64,000 nucleotides of DNA from Haloarcula mannanilytica (GTDB taxonomy: Archaea; Halobacteriota; Halobacteria; Halobacteriales; Haloarculaceae): NCBI RefSeq assembly GCF_005406125.1, contig NZ_BIXZ01000001.1:1240001-1304000 (forward strand). The letters run 5' to 3'. The stretch's first letter is position 1; each line of letters starts with the position of its first letter. The notes under the pieces are model-generated. The model searched no databases. It was given only the letters and a program-made list of their open reading frames with translations, and was not told where the DNA came from. This document shows positions 5,713 to 49,462 of this stretch, in pieces. The position numbers and the translations under genes are program-made.

Positions 5713-8097
5713 ATGAATACGCGGCGGGGATTCCTGCAGTTACTCACAGCGGGGAGTGTGGGGACTGCAGTACTGAATGGACAATCACTAGCGGCTCCAG
5801 CGACGATTTCGATAGACGGTGGTGGTTCGGACGTCTGGGGTACCGAGGACCAGTGTCACTTCTACTACGAACAGGTCACTGGGACGTTTGACGTAACCGT
5901 CCACATCGACGATATCGAAGATACCGGCGACTGGGCGAAAGCTGGTATAATGGTCAGGGAGGAGCTATCCCCAGACGCGAAAAACGTCCTCGTTCGGTAC
6001 ACGCCGGAGAACGAAAGCTCCGTCCAGTGGCGACCCAGTACCGGCAGTGAGACAGACAGTACGACCCAGAGCGACATTGGCAACGGAACGACAGACGGTG
6101 ACTGGGTCCGGCTGGTCCGGGAGGGTAACGCTATCGTCGGCTATGGGTCCACCGACGGGAACAACTGGACTCGTACCTGCCGCCTACCCAGCAACCGGAT
6201 CGATTTCAGCGACGAGACGTACGTCGGTCTCACAGTCACGAGTTTCGACTGGGGGACGCTGTGTTCAGCGACGTTCGACGAGCTATCTGGTCTCTCCCCG
6301 GACGAGAACCGGGATATCGGGAACGTGAATCCGGCAGGCAGCGTCGCCACGAGCACCGGCACTGAGACGCCGACTGCAACACCGACCGAAAGCGGCGGTA
6401 CGGAGCCGACCGAAACGGAAACTGAAACGCAGGATGAGGATGAGGAGCCGACCGAAACCGACGGTGCACCCATTGACCCGGGAACCTACAGCGTCCGAAA
6501 CGCGAACTCCGGCAAGGCTCTCACCGTCGAGAACGGGTCCGAAGAGAACCGGGCGTCGCTGATCCAGCAACCGTATCAGGGGAAGCCGTCCCAGCACTGG
6601 ACCGTCGAATCACTCGATGACGGCAGCTATCGCCTGACACCGGAGCACTCGGGCAAGGCCGCCGACCTCAACAAGGGGCGACAGAGAAACGGGGCCAACA
6701 TCGTCCAGTGGGACTGGCACGGGAGCGCGAACCAGCGCTGGACCATCGAGCCTGTCGGCGACGACACGTACCGTATCCAGTCGGTACATTCCGGCAAGGT
6801 GATGTCCGTGACGGACGGCTCCGAAGCCGACGGCGCGAACGTCCACCAGATGGAGTGGAACGATACCGCCAGCCAGCGATGGCGCTTCGACGGCGACCTG
6901 GGCGAGCCCGAAACCGAGGAGCCAACAGAGACGGCTACCGGCGGGACATCACAGTTCGGTCTCGATTCCGGCTTTGCCGACCCCGCACCGTGGCTCCACG
7001 ACGACGTTTCGGTCAGGACCGTCACCGAACCGACGCGTAGCGCTGTCGAGGCGGCTATCGGCGGCAGTGGGCCACGAGTGGTCGTCTTCGAGACCAGCGG
7101 AACGATTGACTTGGGCGGCACGCCGCTGAAGATCACCGTTGATGACTGCTGGGTCGCCGGGCAGACGGCTCCCTCCCCCGGGATTACCTTCATCAACGGT
7201 CGGGTCCAGATAAGCGCCGACAACTGCGTCCTCCAGCACATCCGCTCGCGAATCGGTCCGGGTACGGGTGAGGACATTCAGGGCAAAGACTCGGTCAATA
7301 CGGCCTACGGAACGCAAAACAACGTCATCGACCACGTGACCGCGTCCTGGGGTACCGACGAGTGCATGTCAGTCGGCTACAAGACCAGCGAGACGACGTT
7401 CACGAACAACCTCATCTACGAGGCGCTGTACGACCCCTTCGGTGAGCAGAGCGAACACCACTACGCGACACTGGTCGGCGACGACGCGGACAACGTCACG
7501 CTCGCCGGGAATGTCTGGGCCAAATGCCGTCGACGAATGCCACGGCTGAAAACCGGCTCCAGGACCGTCGTCGCCAACAACCTCGCGTATTTCTTCGACG
7601 GCGGCAGCAACATGGACGCCGATACGGAGGCGACGTTCGTCGGGAACACGTATCTCGGGCAAGTCGACACGAGCGATAGAGTGTTCGAAGGCGGCAACGC
7701 GTACATGGCGGACAACACGGTCGCGGAGCCCCCGCTCGATGCTGGCACGCCGAAGTACGGCGACGGCAACGAACTCAGCTCTCGTCCCCTGTGGCCGGAC
7801 GGACTCAACGCCATGCCCTCCTCCGAAGTCGAAGCACACAACCTCGCCAACGCGGGCGCGCGACCCGCCGACCGGACGGCGAACGACCAGCGGATCGTCG
7901 ACGAAATCAGAGATCGGGCCGGCAACGACAAGCTCGACTCCCCCTACGACTACTGGGTCGGGGACGAGACCGATGTCGGGGGATACCCGGACCTTCCGGA
8001 AAACACGCATTCGCTCGATGTCCCGGACAGCGGCCTCCGGGAGTGGCTCGCCGCCTGGGCGCGAGCAGTCGAAGCCCCCGACGCCAGCCCACCGTAG
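5713..8097 (+). CDS. Tat-exported multidomain protein: lectin domain plus pectate-lyase-like beta-helix
   Basis: Secreted polysaccharide-active protein, 794 aa. The Tat signal TRRGFLQLLTAGS is at residues 3-15. Residues ~35-185 form a concanavalin/DUF1349-like beta domain (FYYEQVTGTFDVTV, WAKAGIMVREELS). A Thr/Glu/Pro-rich linker follows (~205-255). Residues ~257-395 are a ricin-type beta-trefoil (CBM13-like) with three QxW marks: SQHWTV, NQRWTI, SQRWRF. Residues ~415-790 are a right-handed beta-helix of pectate lyase family PL1 type, with VIDHVTASWGTDECMS and CRRRMPRLKTGSRTVVANN. The probable role is binding and cleaving pectin or related uronides outside the cell. The substrate is inferred, and no sugar transporter or uronate genes are next to it. 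It follows an AT-rich gap, which is compatible with horizontal gain. Confidence 0.85.
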   Translation: MNTRRGFLQLLTAGSVGTAVLNGQSLAAPATISIDGGGSDVWGTEDQCHFYYEQVTGTFDVTVHIDDIEDTGDWAKAGIMVREELSPDAKNVLVRYTPENESSVQWRPSTGSETDSTTQSDIGNGTTDGDWVRLVREGNAIVGYGSTDGNNWTRTCRLPSNRIDFSDETYVGLTVTSFDWGTLCSATFDELSGLSPDENRDIGNVNPAGSVATSTGTETPTATPTESGGTEPTETETETQDEDEEPTETDGAPIDPGTYSVRNANSGKALTVENGSEENRASLIQQPYQGKPSQHWTVESLDDGSYRLTPEHSGKAADLNKGRQRNGANIVQWDWHGSANQRWTIEPVGDDTYRIQSVHSGKVMSVTDGSEADGANVHQMEWNDTASQRWRFDGDLGEPETEEPTETATGGTSQFGLDSGFADPAPWLHDDVSVRTVTEPTRSAVEAAIGGSGPRVVVFETSGTIDLGGTPLKITVDDCWVAGQTAPSPGITFINGRVQISADNCVLQHIRSRIGPGTGEDIQGKDSVNTAYGTQNNVIDHVTASWGTDECMSVGYKTSETTFTNNLIYEALYDPFGEQSEHHYATLVGDDADNVTLAGNVWAKCRRRMPRLKTGSRTVVANNLAYFFDGGSNMDADTEATFVGNTYLGQVDTSDRVFEGGNAYMADNTVAEPPLDAGTPKYGDGNELSSRPLWPDGLNAMPSSEVEAHNLANAGARPADRTANDQRIVDEIRDRAGNDKLDSPYDYWVGDETDVGGYPDLPENTHSLDVPDSGLREWLAAWARAVEAPDASPP

Positions 8098-45085: not shown

Positions 45086-45595
45086 CTACTCTTCAGTTTC
45101 GTTCGTCGTCTCGTTGCCGGTCATGTTGCCGTCGGTCTCGTTGCCGGTCATGTTGCCGTCGGTCTCGTTGCCGGTCATGTTGCCAGTCGCCGTCTCATTT
45201 TCGGTCATGTTGCCGTCGATTTCAGTCTCGTTGCCGGCCGTACCGGTTTCATTGCCCGGCATCTCGGTTTCGTTGCCCGGCATGTCCGTCTCGTTTTCGC
45301 CGAGTTCGGTTTCGGTTTCACCCATCTCCGTCTCGGTTTCACCCATCTCCGTCTCGGTTTCACCCATCTCAGTCTCGGTCTCCATCTCCGTTTCCGTCTC
45401 CATCGCCGGCTCGGTCTCCGTTTCTGCGTCGGTCATCGCGTCGGTCTCTTCCTCCGTGGCCGTACCCGGACCTTCAGCGCCGCCGCCCGGCGTCTCCGTC
45501 CCGGTATCGCCTGCATCACTACAGCCAGCCAGCGCCACGAGTGCGCCGCCTGCGAGTTTGATAACGTTCCGTCGAGATTTTATCGATCCGTCCAT
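45086..45595 (-). CDS. Repeat-rich, sequon-dense Tat lipoprotein
   Basis: Exported protein, 169 aa. The Tat motif SRRNVIKLAGG is followed by the lipobox ALAGC (Cys25). The whole mature part is low complexity: Thr/Glu repeats of the type GETETEM, then N-E-T and N-M-T units. I count 13 N-x-T sequons in the last ~75 residues, so it is likely a heavily N-glycosylated, extended surface stalk or a sacrificial layer. No fold can be assigned. The repeats are tandem at DNA level (45111-45191 and 45317-45379), so length probably varies between strains. Confidence 0.75.
   Translation of the reverse strand: MDGSIKSRRNVIKLAGGALVALAGCSDAGDTGTETPGGGAEGPGTATEEETDAMTDAETETEPAMETETEMETETEMGETETEMGETETEMGETETELGENETDMPGNETEMPGNETGTAGNETEIDGNMTENETATGNMTGNETDGNMTGNETDGNMTGNETTNETEE
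45111..45191. repeat. Three tandem 27-bp repeats inside the lipoprotein gene
   Basis: Copies at 45111-45137 and 45138-45164 are identical and the third (45165-45191) diverges at its end. Each encodes nine residues of the N-E-T-D-G-N-M-T-G type. Being in frame, changes in copy number would lengthen or shorten the protein without breaking it. Confidence 0.85.
45317..45379. repeat. Three tandem 21-bp repeats inside the lipoprotein gene
   Basis: Copies start at 45317, 45338 and 45359. The third has one base change. Each encodes the heptapeptide type G-E-T-E-T-E-M. They preserve the reading frame. Confidence 0.8.
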
Positions 45596-46146: not shown

Positions 46147-47730
46147 TCAGTGGTCGCTCTCGTGCGGGTGAAGTTCCGTCCCGTAGTTCTCGGCGTGGTC
46201 GGCGTAGTCGATGAACCGGGGGGCGTCGGGGTCGAAGGGCCGTTGCAGCGCGTCGAAGGCCTTCTTTTTGTCCCAGCCCTGGAGCTTGCCGACAGCCGAG
46301 CGGTCTTCGAGGTCGTGGTAGTCCAGGTCGGGCTCGGTCAGTTCCCACGCCCGCAGGCCGGTTTCGGTGCGGACGATGACCGAGGAGTACTCGTCGCTGG
46401 AGCCGACGGAGCCGACGGTGAGGTCGGCACAGTAGCCCGTGAAGTCGGCGCACTCGTCACAGCCCTTGAGGGCGGCATCGTGGAAGTTCTCGACATCTTC
46501 CTCCAGTAGCATCTCGCCGTCCTCGCCGTAGACCATCATCTTCCCGTGGAGCACGTCCATCTTGCCGATGTCGGCGCGGTCGATGCCGCGCTCCTCCTCG
46601 AGGAGTTCGCCGATGAGCGAGTAGTAATTGAAGTTCTTCGTACACATCAGCGCGATGGTGTAGTCGATGGCGCGGACGCCCTCTTCCTGGGCGGCGTAAT
46701 CCCAGTCGAAGTCCTGCAGGGCGCGAATCCCCTCGATTTCACAGGGCGTGCCGACGAGTGCGAGCGACGCCTCGGAGAGTGGCACGTCGAGCTTGTGCGC
46801 CCAGCGTTCGAGGTCGAGGTTCCCGAGCGCGAGCGTCTGGTTGTAGAAGCTCCCGGCGTTGTCGATGCACTCCTCGGGCGTCGTCGCGAGGAACGATTCG
46901 GCCTTCCACTCGGCGTCGTCGCTCTCTGTCGCGATGAGCGCGCCGTCGATTTCGCCGGCTTCCAGCAAGTGACACAGGACCGAGGTCACGAGGCCGCCGT
47001 CCTGTGCGTTCTCGCGCCAGTCGTCCTCGACCTTCGCGGAGAACTCCGTGATGGGGTCGCCCGCGCCCTTGACGTTGTCGTCGCCGCCGGTGATCTTCCA
47101 CTGGCGCTCGTACCGGAGGCCACCCCTGGGGCACATGTCCCAGCACAGTGAGCAGCCGGTACACATCTTCACGAGTTCGGGGAGGTCGTCGTCCCCGACG
47201 CCGATGGAGTCGCTGGGACAGGCCGCGACGCAGGTTCCACACTGGATACAGCGGTCGGCCTGGATAACGGCCTCGTCGAGTTCCATGAACCACGTCTTGC
47301 CCTCGGGTTCCTCGATGTCACTCATCTCCGCGCGGATGCCGTAGCCGGGCGTGTCGAGGTCGACGCCCTCCGGAACGTCCACCCGCTCGTCGGGCCGGCC
47401 GTCGTCGACGTTCTGGCTGGTTCCCGTCGCTGGTTTCGTGAACTGGATGGGTTTGAGCTGGCCGTTCGGATCGACGTTCGCCGCGCCGGTACCGCCGTCC
47501 GGCCGAGCGCGCCGTTCGTCGCCTCGACTCTCGCCGCCACAGCCACACGACTCCCCGCAGCCGCAGTCGTCGCTCTCGTCCCCCGGGACGCCGGGCATCG
47601 GCCGGCCCCCGTCGGTCACCAGCGGCGGGTCCACGTCGTCGCGGCCGGCGGTAGTGTCCGCTGTTGGCTCAACGAACTCAGGTGCGGCGTCGGCTGGGGC
47701 GACCTGTCGCCAGTAGCGCCGGTCAGTCAT
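46147..47730 (-). CDS. Ferredoxin plus FrhB/FpoF-like flavoprotein (F420-type dehydrogenase beta subunit)
   Basis: Protein of 527 aa. Residues ~50-70 hold the cluster CGCGESCGCGG. At ~160-205 is a two-cluster ferredoxin: CIQCGTCVAACPSDS and CTGCSLCWDMCPRGG. From ~225 to the end is a coenzyme F420 hydrogenase/dehydrogenase beta-subunit fold (FrhB N and C domains) with AQDGGLVTSVLCHLLEAGEI, LVGTPCEIEGIRALQDF, YTIALMCTKNFNY and KGCDECADFTGYCADLTVGS. Such proteins take electrons from F420H2 via flavin and pass them to [4Fe-4S] clusters. It starts inside the 3' end of the siroheme reductase gene (8-bp overlap), so it is very likely its electron donor. F420 use is inferred from family and haloarchaeal F420 content. 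Confidence 0.88.
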   Translation of the reverse strand: MTDRRYWRQVAPADAAPEFVEPTADTTAGRDDVDPPLVTDGGRPMPGVPGDESDDCGCGESCGCGGESRGDERRARPDGGTGAANVDPNGQLKPIQFTKPATGTSQNVDDGRPDERVDVPEGVDLDTPGYGIRAEMSDIEEPEGKTWFMELDEAVIQADRCIQCGTCVAACPSDSIGVGDDDLPELVKMCTGCSLCWDMCPRGGLRYERQWKITGGDDNVKGAGDPITEFSAKVEDDWRENAQDGGLVTSVLCHLLEAGEIDGALIATESDDAEWKAESFLATTPEECIDNAGSFYNQTLALGNLDLERWAHKLDVPLSEASLALVGTPCEIEGIRALQDFDWDYAAQEEGVRAIDYTIALMCTKNFNYYSLIGELLEEERGIDRADIGKMDVLHGKMMVYGEDGEMLLEEDVENFHDAALKGCDECADFTGYCADLTVGSVGSSDEYSSVIVRTETGLRAWELTEPDLDYHDLEDRSAVGKLQGWDKKKAFDALQRPFDPDAPRFIDYADHAENYGTELHPHESDH

Positions 47731-49462
47731 CGTCGGCCACCTCCCCGCGACCGCCGCCGTCGCCGTGTGCGGTTCCACCCGAAACGTTCGCGTCGGCCCG
47801 CTGCATCACAGCGCGAAGTCGGTCGTTGCCGACGCGACGGCACCACTCGTAGAACCGCTCGCCATCGTCACGCTCGTCGGCGTAGGCCTCGAACAGTTCT
47901 TCCAGCGCCGGAATCACGGCATCCGCCGGGACGGCGTGTTCGACCCAGTCGAGGAATTCGTTGTCCGCACCGAGGCTGCCGCCGAGGCCGAAGTCCATTC
48001 CCTCGACGATGTTGTCGCCTTCCTCGTTGGTGGTCCCCTCGGGGTCGTCGATCTGTACCGTTTCACCCCGGAAACCGATGTCGGCTATCTGTGGCTGGGC
48101 GCAGGACGCCGAGCAGCCGGACATGTGCATCCGGACCACGTCGATTTCCTCGGGCACGTCGATGCGGCGGTCAAGCGCTTTCGCCCACCGTTGGACCCGG
48201 TTTTTCGTCTCGATGATGCCGTAGTTGCAGAACTCGGAGCCGGTACAGCCGACCGCGCCCCGCGAGAATGGGCCGGGATCGGGCTGGTACTTCCGAGCGA
48301 ACGGCGTGTTCAGCAGGTCGCCGATGTTTTGCTCGGGAACATGTGTGATGAGAAAGTTCTGGTCGGTCGCCAGTCGGACCGAGGCGTCGTCGGTGCCGTA
48401 CTCGCTCGCTGCGTGGGCGGCCCGCCGGAACTCGTCGCCGCCCATCCGGCCGGCGATGACGTTGAAGCCGACGTATTTCAGGCCGTCCTCGCGCTGGTCG
48501 TGGACGCCGACGTGGTCGCCCCGATACCCCTCCGAGCAGTCGGTCCCGCGAGTCGGCAGATCGACCGCACAGCGGTCACGGACTGCTTCCTCAAACTTCT
48601 CGGCCCCCATCTGCTGGACGAGATAGCGCATCCGGCAGACGCCGCGGTTGTTGCGGTCGCCCAGTTCCTTGAACGTCTGGGCGACCGCCCGGCAGAACTC
48701 CACGGTGTCTTCCGGCGAAATAAACACATCCAGGTCCGATGCCATCCGCGGGCCGTCCGAGAGGCCGCCGCCGACCCTGACGTGGAAGCCGTAGTACTGC
48801 TCGCCGTCGACCTCGCGACGGGCCGGCGTCAGCCCCACGTCGTTGATCTGGGACTGCGCGCAGTCCTGCCGACAGCCGGTGATGGTCAGCTTGAACTTCC
48901 GCGGGAGGTTCGCATACTCCCGGTTTTTCGTGAAAAAGTCCGAGACGGCGTCAACCACGGGCTGGGCGTCGAAGCACTCGTGGTCGTCCAGCCCGGCGGC
49001 GGGACAGCCGAGGACGTTCCGAGCAGAGTCGCCACAGCCCTGGACCGTCGTCAGGCCGACCTCGTCGTAGCGTTGCCAGATTTCGGGCACGTCCTCGATT
49101 TCGATCCAGTGCATCTGGATGTCCTGGCGGGTCGTGATATCGAGGAAGGCGTCGCCCCAGATGTCGTTCTGTTCCTCGCCGCCGAATTCCTCGGGCGCGG
49201 TGGCGTACTCGTCGGCCACCGCACCGATGACTTCGGCCTGTTCGGGCGAGAGGTAGCCGCCCGGGACTTTGGTCCGCATCATGAAATAGCCGTCCTGGCG
49301 GCCGTGGGCGTACAGCCCGGCCCACTTCAGCCGCTCCCACTCGCCGTCACCGGCCCGGGCCTCGATTTCTTCGAAACTCAACTCCTCGGCCGCGTACCGC
49401 TCGACATCTTCGATGACATCCAGCGGATGCTTCTCCTGTTTCCAGCGTTCAACTGTGTTCAT
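47723..49462 (-). CDS. nirA: Siroheme nitrite/sulfite reductase (assimilatory type)
   Basis: Six-electron reductase of nitrite to ammonia or sulfite to sulfide, 579 aa. Both ferredoxin-like half domains and both siroheme halves are present. GCRQDCAQSQINDVGL is the first-half equivalent. The [4Fe-4S]-siroheme ligands are CTGSEFC and CSASC, the latter in MHMSGCSASCAQPQIADIG. The N terminus MNTVERWKQEKHPLDVI resembles the haloarchaeal ferredoxin-nitrite reductases. No nitrate reductase, nitrate transporter or sulfate-activation genes are in view, so nitrite versus sulfite is undecided. ATG 49462 is preferred. It overlaps the FrhB-like gene. Confidence 0.9.
   Translation of the reverse strand: MNTVERWKQEKHPLDVIEDVERYAAEELSFEEIEARAGDGEWERLKWAGLYAHGRQDGYFMMRTKVPGGYLSPEQAEVIGAVADEYATAPEEFGGEEQNDIWGDAFLDITTRQDIQMHWIEIEDVPEIWQRYDEVGLTTVQGCGDSARNVLGCPAAGLDDHECFDAQPVVDAVSDFFTKNREYANLPRKFKLTITGCRQDCAQSQINDVGLTPARREVDGEQYYGFHVRVGGGLSDGPRMASDLDVFISPEDTVEFCRAVAQTFKELGDRNNRGVCRMRYLVQQMGAEKFEEAVRDRCAVDLPTRGTDCSEGYRGDHVGVHDQREDGLKYVGFNVIAGRMGGDEFRRAAHAASEYGTDDASVRLATDQNFLITHVPEQNIGDLLNTPFARKYQPDPGPFSRGAVGCTGSEFCNYGIIETKNRVQRWAKALDRRIDVPEEIDVVRMHMSGCSASCAQPQIADIGFRGETVQIDDPEGTTNEEGDNIVEGMDFGLGGSLGADNEFLDWVEHAVPADAVIPALEELFEAYADERDDGERFYEWCRRVGNDRLRAVMQRADANVSGGTAHGDGGGRGEVADDD

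Follow-up and report, generated by a model that had tools for sequence, protein, structure and literature searches.

The locus described herein is best read, from its sequence, as an ortholog of the predicted haloarchaeal aFsr and as a real, well-conserved operon. It lies in a window (the whole 64-kb stretch of DNA that was analysed) and encodes two proteins on the minus strand. These are aFsr-alpha, a siroheme reductase of the NirA/SirA type with 579 aa (47723-49462, ATG at 49462, stop ending at 47723), and aFsr-beta, an FpoF/FrhB-like ferredoxin-flavoprotein with 527 aa (46147-47730, ATG at 47730, stop ending at 46147). Together, alpha and beta putatively form one enzyme, an F420H2-dependent sulfite reductase, with a probability of roughly 0.6 for all parts of this reading taken jointly. 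The parts are a two-subunit alpha-beta complex, which is very likely, F420H2 as the electron donor, which is probable, and sulfite as the main substrate, for which the odds are also good; the estimates for donor and substrate are partly correlated.

The pair is already known as a prediction and is not new as an idea. It was described in haloarchaea as putative aFsr-alpha/aFsr-beta by Susanti and Mukhopadhyay in 2012 (PMC3448663), and the name was repeated in a 2022 paper (PMC9295563). No difference was found between the pair and the 2012 aFsr, which has the same two separate subunits, lineage and proposed reaction. A literature search, with most subscription journals outside its reach, returned no report of experimental or biochemical work on aFsr. 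The additions made here are the inseparable pairing and joint loss of the two genes, the case for sulfite over nitrite, and an FrhB-paired sister class that carries rhodanese, a domain not mentioned in the main text of the 2012 paper (PMC3448663). The Fsr of methanogens (Group I; 7np8, 7npa, 9tn7) likewise links an F420H2 oxidase module and ferredoxin clusters to a siroheme-[4Fe-4S] reductase. However, Fsr is one chain with the opposite order and a Dsr-like reductase half with an inserted ferredoxin domain, whereas the reductase here is a separate, double-length protein of the NirA/SirA type. The pair is the counterpart, in two subunits, of the fused enzyme of methanogens and uses a different reductase. 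In a 2021 review, a single F420-dependent reaction was reported in halophilic archaea, and the role of the cofactor was termed enigmatic (PMC8305020). The pair, present in about one quarter of the sampled Halobacteria and the sole siroheme reductase detected in a dozen, is a good test case for this role.

The reading frames of alpha and beta overlap by 8 bp (47723-47730, minus strand, taken from the ORF ends), exactly as the original prediction had it. They are two ORFs in different frames, not the fused single chain of Fsr, and the reductase gene comes first, so the predicted reversal of the Fsr domain order was also borne out. The assimilatory type proposed for the siroheme partner was verified by matches to spinach nitrite reductase (3.6e-84) and M. 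tuberculosis NirA (8e-71). The domain search gave NIR_SIR at 186 bits and NIR_SIR_ferr at 101 bits, in the doubled plan of assimilatory enzymes. The nearest solved proteins by sequence in the PDB were spinach and tobacco nitrite reductase and M. tuberculosis NirA; by predicted fold, NirA was nearest with a TM of 0.73. Similarity to Fsr was weak (1e-11 by sequence, TM 0.34 by predicted fold), and alpha does not have its Dsr-like half. M. tuberculosis NirA/SirA (1zj8) and plant ferredoxin nitrite reductase (2akj) share the fold and active-site plan of alpha at 32-33% identity in the fold alignment; both are single proteins, and the plant enzyme is fed by ferredoxin. The structure paper on the M. 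tuberculosis protein (Schnell et al. 2005, cited in PMC11237513) calls it a sulfite reductase in its title.

The siroheme-[4Fe-4S] ligands were found in the sequence of alpha as C406-X5-C412 in the first half (48227-48247, minus strand) and C450-X3-C454 in the second half (48101-48115, minus strand). The substrate-site motif R188-K189-F190-K191 is encoded at 48890-48901 (minus strand), with K191 in the place of plant Asn226. R63, R148, K189 and K191 were invariant, together with all four cysteines, among the 29 sequences aligned. Alpha therefore carries the aSir/SirA signature, two Arg and two Lys at the siroheme and the CX5CXnCX3C cluster motif. An equivalent of the plant Asn226 is absent, and Lys191 was present in every sequence read of class I, the plain aFsr type to which the window belongs. 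In the reductases L090:8004-10343, L103:5258-7240 and L110:5102-6874, Ser or Ala takes the place of the CxxxC cysteines of the N-terminal half, which read GCRQDC in the window's alpha. The palindrome CACAGTATTGTG, which precedes the start of alpha, was considered as an operator and dropped, as its conservation is confined to near relatives.

In the domain search, beta matched FrhB_FdhB_N at 73 bits and FrhB_FdhB_C at 112 bits, as well as a 4Fe-4S dicluster domain. The two ferredoxin-type CX2CX2CX3CP motifs, C161-P172 and C190-P201 (residues 161-201; 47128-47250, minus strand), are N-terminal to the FrhB domains, as in the aFsr description, and their cysteines are invariant. The FrhB_FdhB_N domain, which includes the FAD loop QDGG, is encoded at 46828-47043, and the FrhB_FdhB_C domain with the cysteines of the third [4Fe-4S] cluster and the VGSVGS segment at 46339-46767, both on the minus strand. 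The locus thus has the arrangement by which aFsr is defined, a gene for an assimilatory-type siroheme reductase adjoining that of an Fsr-N/FpoF homolog. The solved proteins nearest to beta were the F420 modules of Fsr, F420-reducing CODH and Frh, and relatives of beta in the bacteria Rubrobacter and Thermobaculum were listed in the 2012 paper (PMC3448663). The FAD site and the third cluster are common to beta, FpoF/FqoF, FrhB and the CODH-bound F420 reductase (8riu); the two N-terminal clusters also occur in FpoF/FqoF and the CODH-bound enzyme but not in FrhB. Beta differs from all of these in its partner enzyme and in an N-extension of 150 residues before the [4Fe-4S] motifs. This extension holds a Cys cluster, CGCGESCGC (47539-47565, minus strand), with a similar cluster in most class I loci, and a stretch, NVxxxGxL...FTxPxxGxSQ, found in 75 of 78 class I loci. 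The stretch is absent from class II, whose alpha bears two extra rhodanese domains, and for this reason it may be guessed, from sequence, to be a candidate docking element for alpha. The AlphaFold model of beta (pLDDT 50) was too poor to place F420.

The features of beta point to F420H2 as the donor. The QDGG loop, the third-cluster cysteines and VGSVGS vary little or not at all in class I, and FrhB structures put their equivalents at FAD, the cluster and F420 (PMC3591093, PMC3930138). The beta profile scored about 137-203 bits against F420 enzymes (Fsr, the CODH-bound F420 reductase and FrhB), versus 31 bits for HCAR. HCAR, which is not known to be an F420 enzyme, was a fold match in the same fold family, and this is one reason to consider that the complex is real but that beta takes electrons from ferredoxin or NADPH. 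A second reason is that the second Lys of IGKGK, a suggested F420-phosphate contact, is present in beta (P0001) and in 21 of 33 class I sequences, is replaced by Asp, Glu or Arg in the others, and is rare in class II. This variation lowers the F420 inference and does not remove it, because the F420-active FsrII of ANME likewise has a deviating site (PMC9295563). The abundant haloarchaeal [2Fe-2S] ferredoxin also feeds the nitrite reductase of these organisms (PMC2483277). Such a change of donor is unlikely in view of the much closer profile match to F420 enzymes than to HCAR and the retention of FAD loop, cluster ligands and VGSVGS segment. The genome also encodes NpdG (260 bits), which is able to make F420H2 from NADPH, and haloarchaeal genomes are reported to carry the genes for F420 synthesis generally (PMC8305020).

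In the proposed mechanism of the F420H2-dependent sulfite reductase, NpdG would regenerate F420H2 from NADPH, and beta would oxidise it by hydride transfer to the bound FAD. Single electrons would then move from FAD to the beta cluster C330/C363/C424/C427 and on to the two ferredoxin-type N-terminal clusters. This path within beta is homologous to that in the Fsr crystals (PMC10229431). From the beta clusters, electrons would presumably pass to the siroheme-[4Fe-4S] centre of alpha at C406/C412/C450/C454. Sulfite would be held there by R63, R148, K189 and K191 and reduced with six electrons to sulfide, for cysteine synthesis.

The co-occurrence of the two genes, a survey of which had been proposed with the original prediction, was measured among 242 Halobacteria genomes. 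Class I alpha homologs were found in 64 genomes, beta in the same 64, and the two genes were adjacent in 64/64; the pairing is obligate in this set and therefore far beyond chance. In a second collection of named loci, which overlaps the 242-genome set in organisms, alpha adjoins beta in 79 of the best 80 loci, the exception being an extra beta copy. Among the matches listed for these best 80 loci, the closest named relatives were Haloarcula species. No alpha-type reductase outside Halobacteria was listed among 247 genomes of the phylum at E <= 1e-100.

Four other Haloarcula genomes have lost the pair. Alpha is wholly gone, and about 61-65 codons of the beta start are left as deletion scars at 53-63% identity (L040:4473-4652, L041:4583-4762, L042:4334-4525, L043:4509-4688). 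The scars keep the same flanks, with ftsY on one side and lipoprotein and aldolase genes on the other. The same neighbours flank a beta remnant without alpha, so an ancestor carried the pair, and both genes were lost together as one unit. The reading of the 61-residue beta N-terminus as a stand-alone adaptor in these genomes was rejected, since the synteny points to a deletion scar. Repeats of Thr/Glu/Gly/Asn make up most of a lipoprotein-like ORF in the window (45086-45595, minus strand); its tandem repeats, at 45104-45421, are about 21 and 27 bp long.

Alpha and beta could also be mere neighbours, with alpha working alone on ferredoxin like NirA and beta being an unrelated F420 enzyme. Alpha does resemble ferredoxin-dependent enzymes, and two orphan beta copies without alpha exist (L048:4301-5584, minus strand; L175:5965-7380, plus strand). 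Given the adjacency counts, the joint loss and a second class that is paired alike, mere neighbourhood is highly improbable. As a separate observation, the L048 orphan adjoins a TcuA-like FAD dehydrogenase gene and an SDR-like gene, which hints at another F420-linked pairing. An F420H2-to-siroheme route that was independently assembled, as first suggested from the sequence, is still the best reading, and the pairing behind it is very well supported; the idea itself dates from 2012.

The second class, class II, is a divergent FrhB-paired locus present in 23/242 Halobacteria genomes, with the FrhB gene adjacent in 23/23. Its loci include L044 (7417-9822 with 6172-7416), L045 (3955-6336 with 6326-7600) and 21 more (L049, L050, L072-L090). 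The class II reductase has about 800 aa, with rhodanese domains preceding the reductase; two Pfam matches were obtained in each of two scanned proteins. Its FrhB protein is 38-47% identical to beta. In an unrooted tree, alpha classes I and II each form one group, and a branch with 100/100 support sets the two jointly apart from the unpaired reductases. Fusions of rhodanese and NirA were counted in 2024 as 19 of 529 NirA, with a suggested role in sulfur metabolism, in a passage of an mSystems paper (PMC11237513). The halobacterial fusions in that passage are apparently the same proteins as class II; the passage names no FrhB partner, whereas class II has one in each of the 23 loci examined. Tentatively, and with the balance against it, plain aFsr and class II may be seen as one F420H2-driven sulfur-assimilation family with two architectures and one origin. 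In class II, the tandem rhodanese would hand over sulfite from thiosulfate or a similar sulfane donor, taking thiosulfate to sulfide. In 10 class II loci, the second gene begins in frame directly after the stop of the first, a stop that is TAG or TGA where noted. Read-through of this in-frame stop was set aside, as direct stop-start coupling explains the arrangement equally well.

The original prediction had left the substrate as sulfite or nitrite; sulfite is now favoured and nitrite less so, because one of the three siroheme reductases of the source genome, distinct from alpha and nas-linked, carries the nitrite-type residue. This reductase (L009 7208-8980) has the motif RKFN, with the Asn of plant nitrite reductase, and stands beside NasA (1218 bits with halobacterial NasA, cut-off 1000) and NarK-type transporters. 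The stand-alone Lys-type reductase (L008 7266-9029) has RKWK. RKFK is found in the window's alpha and, apart from a rare RKYK, in the class I sequences for which the motif was read. The rhodanese of class II is a sulfur-transfer domain on the reductase and thus supports sulfite as the substrate of the family.

The distribution was then compared with that of the single-gene reductases, which were sorted into types by E-value thresholds. Among the 242 genomes, 29 had both the pair and a stand-alone Lys-type reductase, 35 the pair only, 138 the reductase only and 40 neither. This association is negative (OR 0.24, p 4e-6; family-stratified OR 0.17, p 5e-4), and that with the nas-linked reductase is positive (OR 5.9, p 1e-8; family-stratified 6.3, p 1e-5); stratification was to family level, and genomes of one family are not independent of each other. 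The pair occurs without either single-gene type in thirteen genomes; in 12 of them it is the sole siroheme reductase detected, and in the thirteenth (G002) it is accompanied by a divergent class II copy. These data fit replacement of a sulfite reductase, rather than of a nitrite reductase, by the pair. The need for the pair in the source genome is not obvious, because a stand-alone Lys-type reductase is already present. PF01507 did not discriminate as a marker of sulfate activation, since it was matched in every genome, mostly by a generic family with weak similarity to CysD.

The pair could instead be mainly an F420H2-dependent reductase of nitrite (and hydroxylamine), in nitrogen assimilation or nitrite detoxification. 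Nitrite is a frequent substrate of siroheme sulfite reductases. In ANME, a homolog of Fsr reduces nitrite with F420H2 as donor but is unable to use this donor for sulfite (PMC9295563). The substrate-site Lys leaves nitrite possible, because the Fsr of Methanococcales, also of the lysine type, reduces nitrite in nitrate-grown, nitrate-assimilating species (PMC13381448). The co-occurrence with the nas-linked reductase points the same way, although it could be driven by general metabolic breadth. Against this, the Asn-type reductase already fills the nas-linked role in the genome, and the pair is depleted alongside the stand-alone Lys-type reductase and not alongside the nas-linked one. The sister class has rhodanese domains, and nas genes were not found beside the pair within the 64-kb window. 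A main role in nitrite reduction is accordingly quite unlikely. A conserved same-strand neighbour of 113 aa, which contains Cys and has no Pfam match, accompanies the stand-alone Lys-type reductase in 13 of 21 loci (L008:9122-9463, minus strand).
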